A DNA stretch of 64,000 bases, taken from the NCBI RefSeq assembly GCF_002240415.1, contig NZ_CP020028.1, forward strand, positions 1,032,001-1,096,000, given 5' to 3'. This DNA comes from Paenibacillus kribbensis (GTDB lineage Bacteria > Bacillota > Bacilli > Paenibacillales > Paenibacillaceae). Both the position numbers and the translations under genes were made by a program. Positions 14,868 to 63,714 of the stretch are shown piece after piece. Positions within the stretch are counted from its first letter, which is position 1; the number at the start of each line of letters is the position of its first letter. The notes under the pieces were generated by a model. The model saw nothing but the letters and a program-made list of their open reading frames with translations, did no database searches and was not told the DNA's origin.

Positions 14868-14951
14868 GAAATCTAGTTTCAGAAAAATGCTTGAATTATG
14901 ATTTTAATATAAACTTAACGGACAGCTAAAGCTGGAGTTTAATATATTTTT

Positions 14952-15137
14952 CTTATCCAGAGAGGTGGAGGGACTGGCCCGATGAAGCCCGGCAACCCGT
15001 TCTTTCCCGGTGTAATACACCGGGAGGGGACATGATGGTGCTAATTCCTACAAAACCGCTAGAGTTTTAGCGGTTTTGGCAGATGAGAAAAGGTTCGCAT
15101 GCGGGGCCCTTTTCATTCTGTGAAAGGGGCTCTTTTT
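14952..15137 (+). promoter_or_regulatory. SAM-I riboswitch (S-box) with terminator, controlling metNIQ
   Basis: The conserved S-box core is clear: AGAGGTGGAGGGACTGGCCC at 14960-14979, then GATGAA, CCGGCAACC, GGTGCTAATTCC and a closing GATGAG that pairs with CTTATC at 14952. The aptamer covers about 14952-15087. The expression platform ends with stem GCCCTTTTCA (15106-15115)/TGAAAGGGGC (15121-15130) and TCTTTTT. GAAAAGG at about 15086-15092 can pair with CCCTTTTC as the anti-terminator. Established behaviour of this class: SAM binding terminates transcription, so the methionine importer is made when SAM is low. Confidence 0.95.
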
Positions 15138-23742: not shown

Positions 23743-24346
23743 TAGTTTGAGACGTCATCATCAAGCGGCTTTATGGATTCCTCCTTCCGAAAAGTTATTA
23801 TGAATCCATTCCAAAGAGGCCTGTCCATGCTTAGATGAGAATAAATAAGCAGCAACGGCTTCCCGGAAATTGATCCCAAATAATAAATAATTCAAGAAAA
23901 AATGTATTTATTTTCTATACAATACATTGAGATTAGATAGTTGTCAATATTTTCAATGGAATATATCAATAAATATTGGATATATATGAGAAAATATGTC
24001 GAAATTCAAAACATTTTTAGCGTTGATTCTTTCAAAAATGCGTAACTTCACTAAGTAGACATCAGGCATCCGTTAGAGCGAGAAAATATTAAAAAACAAA
24101 GCTGTTTTTACTTAAGAGAGTTTATGGTTTAGCGTTTTGTCCTTAAAGAGAATATACGCCAGATCATTTTTAATGACTTTATTAGTATTTGTAGACAAAA
24201 TGGTTTAAGTATAAAATCATTCCTGTCAATTCTTTAATTTTGAAGTAGAATATTTTGAAGGTTTCACAGGAGGGACAAAATCTGTTGGTGCGTGGAATGG
24301 TGCTGTACAAGCGAAGCGGTCGCTTTAAATCAATATTAAGTTGAAA
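23743..24346. other. gene-poor AT-rich stretch
   Basis: About 600 bases between the LPMO promoter and the XRE regulator terminator. I find no convincing gene. It holds many T/A runs, a good AGGAGGGA site at about 24269 followed by only 19 codons from a TTG (24284), and at 24294-24326 a 33-base fragment identical to part of the interspersed element at 60900-61101. It looks like decayed sequence. Confidence 0.5.
24294..24326 (+). repeat. fragment of the interspersed palindromic element (copy F)
   Basis: Thirty-three bases starting GGAATGGTGCTGTACAAGCG are the exact reverse complement of 61023-61055 inside copy E. The rest of the element is missing, so this is a remnant. Confidence 0.8.
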
Positions 24347-44637: not shown

Positions 44638-44707
44638 ATAGATTTTAAGGTGTCAAGTTTTTAGTCCTTAACTTATTAAGCGAAGCCAATTCAATAATGT
44701 GTCGACT

Positions 44708-44865
44708 TTATGGCGGTCGGTAGCGAAGCGGATGGAATCGTTCTGGAGAAGCGATAGCGTTCGCCTTTGCCACCGGATTTTTACCATTGAAACTTAATCC
44801 AAAAAGTCCGGTGGCAACAGCGATCGTAAGAATGATCCATCCGCGAAGCGTCTCTCCCCCCATAA
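44708..44865 (+). repeat. interspersed palindromic element, copy A (between dnaB and dnaI)
   Basis: Long imperfect hairpin. Outer arms TTATGG (44708)/CCATAA (44860-44865), then GCGGATGG...TCGTTCT with AGAATGATCCATCCGC, then GCCACCGGA with TCCGGTGGC. Conserved core words are TCTGGAGAAGCG, AGCGTTCGCCTTTGC on the left and GCAACAGCGATCGTAAGA on the right, shared with copies B and C. The whole 258-base gap 44638-44895 holds only this element and the dnaI ribosome-binding site. Confidence 0.85.
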
Positions 44866-44895
44866 CTCTGCACATTTTAGAAAGGAGGAGTGTTC

Positions 44896-50374: not shown

Positions 50375-50520
50375 TAGGTAACGCCATACATTTGAGCCGA
50401 ATTTCCATAGGAAAACGGGGGAACCATTGTTACTGGGGTGAATTTTACAGCCGGTCTCGTACTGGACGTGTGAATAGGGCATACTGTGCTGCCCGAATCC
50501 GTCAGCTAACCTCGTAGGCT
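50375..50520 (+). promoter_or_regulatory. c-di-AMP riboswitch (ydaO/yuaA motif) upstream of ktrBA
   Basis: Conserved motif words are visible in order: GGTAACGCC, TTTGAGCCGAAT, CGGGGGAACC, TTACTGGGGTGAAT, GCCGGT, GCCCGAATCCGTCAGCTAACC and TCGTAGGC. In Bacillus the same class lies upstream of ktrAB, where c-di-AMP binding stops transcription so that K+ uptake falls. A terminator follows at 50538-50567. Confidence 0.92.
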
Positions 50521-50537
50521 GTGACAGGGACCCAGTC

Positions 50538-50567: not shown

Positions 50568-50604
50568 TGTATAAGTGTGAAAATAAAAGTTTGCTGAGTT
50601 AAGG

Positions 50605-50672
50605 ACGCTGCGCGGTCCATTTGATCTTCCGATCGCTAACGCTTCTCCAGATTTAAATGGACCGCGTAGCGG
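50605..50672 (-). repeat. interspersed palindromic element, short copy D (ktrB leader)
   Basis: On the minus strand GCTACGCGGTCCATTTAAATCT, then the conserved GGAGAAGCG..AGCGATCGGAAGAT core, then CAAATGGACCGCGCAGC. It lacks the central arm of copies A to C. It lies between the riboswitch terminator and ktrB, so it is part of the ktrB leader RNA in reverse orientation. Confidence 0.75.
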
Positions 50673-50732
50673 GCTTACACCGTATTAAATCACTGTTTTT
50701 ATAGTTTTAAGGAGTAGGAGAAGTGATGATTC

Positions 50733-60899: not shown

Positions 60900-61101
60900 A
60901 CTATATAAGTTGAACTTGAAAGTTACTTATCGTGCCACTACGCAGACGGATGGTGCTTCCCATCGCCACCGCCCCCGGATTTCAGAAATAAGGCCTATGA
61001 TCAAGGTAGAAATCCGGGGACAAAAGCGACCGCTTCGCTTGTACAGCACCATTCCGCCTACTCCGTTTTACTTGTACATTTTTTAGTTCAACTTATATAG
61101 T
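60900..61101 (-). repeat. MITE-like interspersed element, copy E, with 17-bp terminal inverted repeats
   Basis: ACTATATAAGTTGAACT (60900-60916) is the exact inverse of 61085-61101. Inside are the arms CGGATGGTGCT/AGCACCATTCCG and CCCCGGATTTC/GAAATCCGGGG. Read on the minus strand its central part resembles copy A (AGCGA.GCGGTCGC.TTTG, CCGGATTT.TACC). The gene-free stretch 60692-61137 holds this element and the GNAT terminator. Confidence 0.85.
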
Positions 61102-62591: not shown

Positions 62592-62750
62592 GCGATTGGT
62601 AGCGGAGCGAAGGATTTGAATCTGGAGAAGCGTGAGCGTTCGCCTTTGCAATGGGATTCTACCCTTTAAAGGACTTATAAAATCCAGAGAATCCCGTTGC
62701 AACAGCGATCGTAAGATCAAATCATTCGCGTAGCGGTGGATCACCAACGA
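62592..62750 (+). repeat. interspersed palindromic element, copy B
   Basis: Contains TGGTAGCGGAGCGAAGGATT, TCTGGAGAAGCG, AGCGTTCGCCTTTGCAATGGGATTCT, and on the right AGAATCCCGTTGCAACAGCG with ATCGTAAGATCAAATCATT. Outer TTGGT/ACCAA arms close it. It lies just past the alarmone synthetase stop, in the same orientation as copy C on the other side. Confidence 0.85.
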
Positions 62751-63563: not shown

Positions 63564-63714
63564 GTGGTTGGTAGCGGAGCGAAGGATTTGAATCTGGAGA
63601 AGCGCAAGCGTTCGCCTTTGCAATGGGATTCTTACTTTATAATATACAATTTCCAAGAATTCCATTGCAACAGCGATCGTAAGATCAAATGATTTGCGGA
63701 GCGGCGATTCCCAC
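63564..63714 (+). repeat. interspersed palindromic element, copy C
   Basis: Nearly identical to copy B in the core (GGTAGCGGAGCGAAGGATTT, TCTGGAGAAGCG.AAGCGTTCG, GCAACAGCGATCGTAAGATC). The loop region differs and the inner arm is GGAATTC-type rather than CCACCGG. Outer GTGG/CCAC close it. Confidence 0.85.

Follow-up and report, generated by a model that had tools for sequence, protein, structure and literature searches.

A dispersed family of hairpin repeats in Paenibacillus and related bacteria that keeps the folded shape of one strand while its letters vary

The window analysed here is a stretch of 64,000 nucleotides of the Paenibacillus kribbensis genome (contig NZ_CP020028.1, positions 1,032,001 to 1,096,000). 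It contains several palindromic segments whose arms differ from copy to copy and remain complementary, which raises the question of what these segments are and what keeps their fold. An earlier note, made from the letters of the window, had described six of them (A to F) as sharing two words, TCTGGAGAAGCG and CGATCGTAAGA. It had argued that changing arms with preserved pairing point to selection on the folded form or to a mechanism depending on it. The best explanation is that A to D, with E as a sub-type, belong to an order-wide family of hairpin elements that are non-autonomous. The copies are about 200 bases long and dispersed in Paenibacillus and related bacteria; their letters vary while the folded shape of one strand is kept. 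Their coordinates and the parts of copy A are listed in Table 1.

Table 1. Positions in the window of the family copies and of the structural parts of copy A.
Feature	Position	Strand	Basis and remarks
Copy A, whole, with outer stem	44696..44876	+	sequence; model match 44718-44855, 142.7 bits
A, outer stem, left strand: AATGTG, internal loop, TATGG	44696..44713	+	pairs with 44860-44876; DNA fold
A, left GC-GNA-GCG word	44723..44730	+	cross-pairs with right word, GNA/GNA internal loop
A, stem 2, left arm, one unpaired A	44728..44744	+	helices 2 and 3; two-sided changes in 12/12 pairs
A, core word GGAGAAGCGATAGCG	44745..44759	+	contains small hairpin GC-GATA-GC, 44751-44758; hairpin pairs in 85/85 and 83/85
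A, stem 3, left strand	44760..44782	+	helices 4 and 5 of covariation test
A, stem 3, right strand, terminating in AGCGATCG	44801..44826	+	covariation test
A, KA dinucleotide facing core word	44827..44828	+	85-copy alignment
A, stem 2, right arm	44829..44844	+	covariation test
A, right CGC-GNA-GC word	44842..44849	+	cross-pairs with left word; covariation alignment
A, outer stem, right strand: CCATA, internal loop, CACATT	44860..44876	+	DNA fold, sequence
Copy B, model span	62597..62740	+	154.6 bits
Copy C, model span	63569..63708	+	134.2 bits; sister genomes lack the inner part or have another one
D, short remnant, stem 3 missing	50601..50675	-	60.4 bits; site comparison
E, type II, ends ACTATATAAGTTGAACT / AGTTCAACTTATATAGT	60900..61101	-	88.3 bits over 60931-61071
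F, left-arm fragment of type II copy	24294..24326	+	sequence; below model threshold

In copies A, B and C, TCTGGAGAAGCG and CGATCGTAAGA stand where they were first placed, and the arms vary between copies and still pair as described. The sharing of words does not extend to all six segments: D matches the first word in full and departs from the second by one change, and E and F have neither. E and F are relatives nonetheless, as members of a second sub-type (type II, GGAATGGTGCTGTACAAGCGAAGCGGTCGC ... GGCGATGGGAAGCACC) of which F is only a left-arm fragment. As to the terminal inverted repeats that copies of a classical MITE would share, the ends are TATATAA...TTATATA-like in type II and locus-specific in type I; the type labels come from a simple word test, and the copy at 5393490, labelled type I, reads like type II. 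The copy ends first proposed were too narrow, copy A having an outer stem AATGTG/CACATT (44696-44701 / 44871-44876).

A covariance model was built from 21 copies without a nested insert. At E ≤ 1e-5 it finds exactly A, B, C, D and E in the window, and at E ≤ 0.01 it gives 85 matches in the window's own genome (G000, 5.78 Mb; other G numbers designate the genomes compared). Removal of 15 opposite-strand matches to copies already listed leaves 70 placements. Among the 39 genomes searched, G000 included, matches were found in 24/24 of the genus and in 3/15 of the others. Counts per genome within the genus range from 1 to 131 matches, the highest in G010. In an even sample of the order the model detects the family in 106 of 149 genomes and 22 of 38 genera. 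The earlier note had taken a genome-wide search without further copies as refuting its claim; the search yields many more. The word TCTGGAGAAGCG occurs 29 times in the own genome and AGCGATCGKAAGA 34 times, and neither is found read backwards (0 occurrences each), so their frequency exceeds chance. Copy E has matches of 200 bases in other genomes (87-90%).

We could not match the hairpin family to a named element, and the earlier note had recognised none either. At the gathering score, Rfam 15 gave no match to the elements over the whole window, only two riboswitches elsewhere. At E ≤ 1 the five element loci gave four microRNA matches, none of them credible, as they score 22.7-24.6 bits where the thresholds are 77-84. 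A known RNA family is thereby ruled out for the window and the five loci as far as Rfam 15 goes, and the literature searches brought up no described Paenibacillus hairpin repeat. One of the two riboswitches is a SAM riboswitch (14950-15089, +, 78.7 bits). The other, for c-di-AMP (50385-50534, +, 89.1 bits), is followed by a terminator-like hairpin with a T run and then directly by copy D; in sister genomes elements likewise lie directly behind the T run of this riboswitch.

The fold was analysed in an alignment of 85 copies from the own genome and other species, made with MAFFT without structure (L116, L066 and rows outside 130-150 bases were dropped). The core of about 140 bases comprises five helices. 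A structure of 35 pairs forms in 95.7% of 2969 cells, compared to 78.0 ± 0.4% in shuffles, and at most 47.1% of cells pair when it is slid along the alignment. Changes on both sides occur in 30 of the 35 pairs. The covariation measure is 0.534 (0.202 ± 0.006 in shuffles), and none of five structure measures is reached by any of 500 shuffles. The variation of the arms is thus compensatory, in support of the claim that the folded form is selected or needed by a mechanism. Type I outer arms fit their own partner better than those of other copies (0/20000 permutations, 52 copies); covariation of type II outer arms is not significant (permutation p 0.11, 13 copies). The RNA fold has a z-score of -7.3, and the DNA folds of both strands are also far from shuffles.

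The stems vary, and conservation in the alignment is highest in the unpaired loop words. Pairing between the two GCGNAGC words runs across the rod (alignment columns 6-146 in 81/85 copies and 7-145 in 82/85), leaving a GNA/GNA internal loop. Their reading as two local mini-hairpins was rejected, the outer pairs forming locally in only 48/85 (columns 6-13) and 55/84. The sole mini-hairpin upheld is that of the core, GC-GN(N)A-GC, whose pairs form in 85/85 and 83/85 copies. Its loop was classified in 93 of 98 distinct copies (rows shorter than 120 bases and duplicates dropped) and is GNA or GNNA in 89 of the 93. Three-base loops are GNA in 46/48, and four-base loops GNNA in 43/45 with a pyrimidine at the third base in 36 of these 43. 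The usual tetraloop rule in RNA is GNRA. The core loops follow instead the GNA/GNNA rule of stable DNA mini-hairpins; passages of the published work describe very stable DNA mini-hairpins with GNA or GNNA loops closed by G-C pairs (PMC4686876).

Which strand folds can be read from the wobble pairs. If both strands folded alike, G·U and A·C would be equally frequent; the alignment of 85 copies has 115 G·U and 18 A·C cells, which means that one strand folds. That one particular strand does so adds to the earlier claim on the folded form. With rows shorter than 120 bases and duplicates dropped, the G·U to A·C counts are 92 and 12 in 61 copies of the own genome and 25:4 in far relatives; the sample of close relatives has no asymmetry (3:2). 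In the own genome the counts are 28:0 when both neighbouring genes lie on the strand of the element, 29:6 when the upstream gene is on the same and the downstream gene on the opposite strand, 11:1 in the reverse arrangement, and 24:5 in the 19 copies whose neighbours both lie on the opposite strand. A·C is somewhat more frequent when the downstream gene is opposite (Fisher 0.027; here as for all P values in this work, related copies are treated as independent and the values are hence too small). Since the asymmetry is kept in antisense copies, it is the element that sets which strand folds, and the fold is not tied to the mRNA of the host gene. The G-T wobble is tolerated also in RNA.

Gene contexts were defined from plain ORFs of at least 100 aa (at least 70 aa for the list of 70 own-genome placements). 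Of 60 own-genome copies, 51 have a gene closer to their 3′ end than to their 5′ end (median distance 45.5 versus 303 bases), whichever the gene strand. In a mixed sample of other species this holds for 19/29. Copy A ends 14 bases before a GTG start at 44890. Many close divergent pairs (minus then plus, about 270-540 bases apart), with each 3′ end towards a gene, were seen in the own genome (G000:C1 positions 455159/455539, 2221683/2222142, 2640040/2640310, 4295284/4295825 and 4309727/4310123). Copies on the strand of both neighbours and copies opposite to both are equally numerous in the own genome (19 each). Among the matches listed, G022 has 24 of the former and 3 of the latter and G016 has 18 and 5; the mixed sample of other species has 18 sense and 4 antisense to both.

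The folded strand lies on the lagging-strand template in 174 of 212 copies among the matches listed for five genomes, namely the best-scoring 34 of 121 in G022, 28 of 114 in G016, 58 of 119 in G011, 34 of 75 in G020 and 58 of 114 in G023 (the genome lengths of the last two are rounded). No such bias exists in the own genome and three close relatives (73/145): the counts are 38/70 in G000 and, among the matches listed, 17/38 in G006 (best 38 of 72), 8/15 in G007 (best 15 of 50) and 10/22 in G014 (best 22 of 45). The origin was placed by dnaA for G000 and G006. Type I copies of G000 split 26:26, and type II copies, with 10/13, do not deviate significantly. In G016, G022 and G011 the leading strand carries about 80% of the flanking ORFs, so gene sense is confounded with the fork and could explain most of the bias. 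When these three genomes are pooled, among the matches listed, elements between leading-strand genes are 50 same and 4 opposite, those between lagging-strand genes 5 and 5 (Fisher 0.003), and those with mixed neighbours 13 with the fork and 2 against. The ten units between lagging-strand genes decide between fork and gene sense, and both of those in G011 favoured gene sense. On only these ten decisive units, the fork seems to matter beyond gene sense, and gene sense matters too.

Orthologous sites show that elements and their parts are present in some species and absent or replaced in others. At site A the full element is found in G000, BJ-4, G006, G007, P. brasilensis and P. maysiensis; G014 and P. 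ottowii have the outer stem with a bare loop, and P. terrae lacks the element, its similarity being limited to the right-hand strand. A pattern of 29 letters from the start of the gene following A matches five Paenibacillus records only, namely P. brasilensis, P. maysiensis, P. sp. BJ-4, P. terrae and P. ottowii, and the host stands near the polymyxa group. Compared to G000, pairs changed on both sides number 4 in BJ-4, 0 in G006 and 7 each in G007, P. brasilensis and P. maysiensis, and the only broken pair is one in P. maysiensis. In BJ-4 stem 2 differs in both arms while stem 3 is almost the same as in G000, an unusual loop being common to both. At site C, G007 has no inner stems, G014 and P. 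ottowii have lost the right half between GCGAT repeats, G006 carries one more nested hairpin and BJ-4 a different hairpin. In G004, which is taken to be BJ-4, a stem-3-like hairpin alone (L085), with no outer parts, stands where others have copy C. At site D, four of five sister genomes have a pair of inverted elements or longer ones, and P. ottowii has none. D had been taken for a simple short copy; the longer and differently arranged elements of the sister genomes contradict this, and D itself reads as what is left of two inverted copies after fusion. Site E was excluded as an empty site because its flanks are too rearranged, and site B in G004 and G007 was likewise not usable.

Nested stems thus come and go between species. 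The losses lie between short direct repeats (GNAGCG, AGCG, GCGAT), so that insertion with duplication and deletion between repeats both fit; sites A, C and D have no clear target duplication. Some own-genome copies (L009, L015, L019, L024, L025 and L032) have an extra nested hairpin AAAGCTTTCC..GGAAAGCT..GCATAAGCTT in the core, which was also seen once beside a copy, reversed. Three near-identical tandem copies with a period of about 185 bases were observed at G000:C1:1150135-1150648 (L045, 1836-2349) and a similar triple at G004:C188:176124-176639. At G000:C1:4890854-4891103 (L031) a type I copy harbours a type II copy in its loop as a nested insertion.

Several known systems resemble the family in part. 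According to the parts of the literature on bcr1-bcr18 of the B. cereus group, these are dispersed, of about 100-400 bp, in tens to about 130 copies, group-restricted, mobile-like and foldable, and reportedly occur in B. cereus s.l. only, in association with TTTAT repeats (PMC6542083, PMC2267715). The hairpin family is set apart by description, occurring in 22/38 genera of another order with covarying stems and fixed loop words. REP/RAYT (GTAG) palindromes are likewise imperfect, strand-specific hairpins with alternative complementary stem bases; the pertinent passages on REPs give stems of 5-13 bp and a GTAG or CGTC foot and do not mention Firmicutes (PMC3733652). The present elements are instead rods of 35 or more pairs, the invariant columns of the 85-copy alignment include no GTAG or CGTC foot, and their own genome has no Y1 gene. 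Integron attC sites are, in the sections of the source that treat them, folded single strands whose shape is recognised; they have unpaired bases and stems that vary, and show effects of the replication strand (PMC5371416), whereas the family is dispersed singly near gene ends and not in cassette arrays. IS200/IS605 elements (IS608) share, in the pertinent part of their description, the use of the lagging-strand template and subterminal hairpins (PMC6006769); here the whole element is one hairpin, it encodes no protein, and its own genome lacks a Y1 transposase.

That the elements are of REP/IS200 type and moved by a Y1 (HUH) transposase, or are reverse-transcribed, is very improbable, even though strand-specific hairpins and a lagging-strand bias recall IS200/IS605 behaviour as described in part in PMC6006769. 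Y1_Tnp (PF01797) was found in none of G000, G003, G004 and G008, and RVT_1 (PF00078) in none of G000, G003, G008, G010 and G019. Each of these genomes has at least 66 family matches, and absence from such high-copy genomes rules out both enzymes as general partners; GTAG-footed REPs with 5-13 bp stems are missing as well. Among the 29 copies of TCTGGAGAAGCG in the own genome none has a long insert between its halves and none is long and gene-bearing; one is cut by a type II copy. Another alternative dispenses with selection on the fold: template switching and conversion between arms or copies would homogenise long palindromes and so yield paired changes. Arm-to-arm copying could give the state of BJ-4, with stem 2 renewed in both arms and stem 3 almost unchanged, and inner stems are indeed lost between short direct repeats. 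We nevertheless consider this explanation weakened and unlikely, because G·T and A·C should balance if the process were strand-symmetric, where 115:18 is seen, and because the unpaired loop words, conserved more than any other part, have not been levelled into the palindrome.

A structured RNA element is a distinctly possible alternative, though we would not bet on it: the fold would work in transcripts, as a cis-acting leader, spacer or 3′ element or in small RNAs, and copies would spread by other means. Stems covarying with G·U tolerance on one strand and the fold z-score of -7.3 agree with it, as do the position of copy A 14 bases before a start codon and, outside the close group of the window, the predominance of copies sense to both neighbours. 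The 19 same-strand and 19 opposite-strand copies of the own genome, the 24:5 asymmetry kept in antisense, the avoidance of GNRA by four-base core loops and DNA folds of both strands that are likewise far from shuffles argue against it. Our best reading, a little short of an even chance and with the RNA element as a strong competitor not far behind, is a non-autonomous element acting as folded single-stranded DNA. Three findings make a single DNA strand read by shape the best fit: the asymmetry among antisense copies, the rule that the core loops follow, and the fork bias. Against this reading stand the lack of fork bias in the own genome and three close relatives, the share that gene sense could have in the bias elsewhere, the searches for a mobilising enzyme, which found neither Y1_Tnp nor RVT_1 in the genomes named, the lack of a clear target duplication, the missing wobble asymmetry in the sample of close relatives, and the tolerance of G-T wobble in RNA too. 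That DNA rather than RNA is the acting form, that mobility passes through a single strand and that a recogniser takes part is what we infer from these patterns.

The fixed strand that folds forms a long rod: an outer stem, the GC-GNA-GCG / CGC-GNA-GC internal loop, stem 2 with its unpaired A, an asymmetric core loop in which the small GC-GN(N)A-GC hairpin stands opposite KA, stem 3 and a terminal loop. In the proposed mechanism, its recognition would most likely occur on single-stranded DNA exposed at the fork on the lagging-strand template. Since the unpaired words are fixed and the stems drift only as pairs, a recogniser would read the shape together with the words in the loops, and a putative enzyme or host process would copy and move the element and renew its arms. 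A more far-reaching version, which we put forward tentatively, holds that for the cell these order-wide elements may be nothing but a folded single strand of DNA, read by shape on the lagging-strand template. Such elements would combine fixed loop words, the GNA/GNNA DNA mini-hairpins among them, with nested stems gained and lost and arms renewed in place, and would involve a recombinase or replication process so far undescribed.

The family is large and deep (106/149 genomes), its covariation equals that of known structured RNAs in clarity, and it corresponds to no curated Rfam 15 family in the searches made. It is a natural data set on what keeps a fold while the sequence turns over. If the fold acts as RNA, the family would be a very common uncatalogued structured RNA of soil Firmicutes. 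If it acts as single-stranded DNA, it would represent a system, neither integron nor Y1, that is read by shape at the replication fork.
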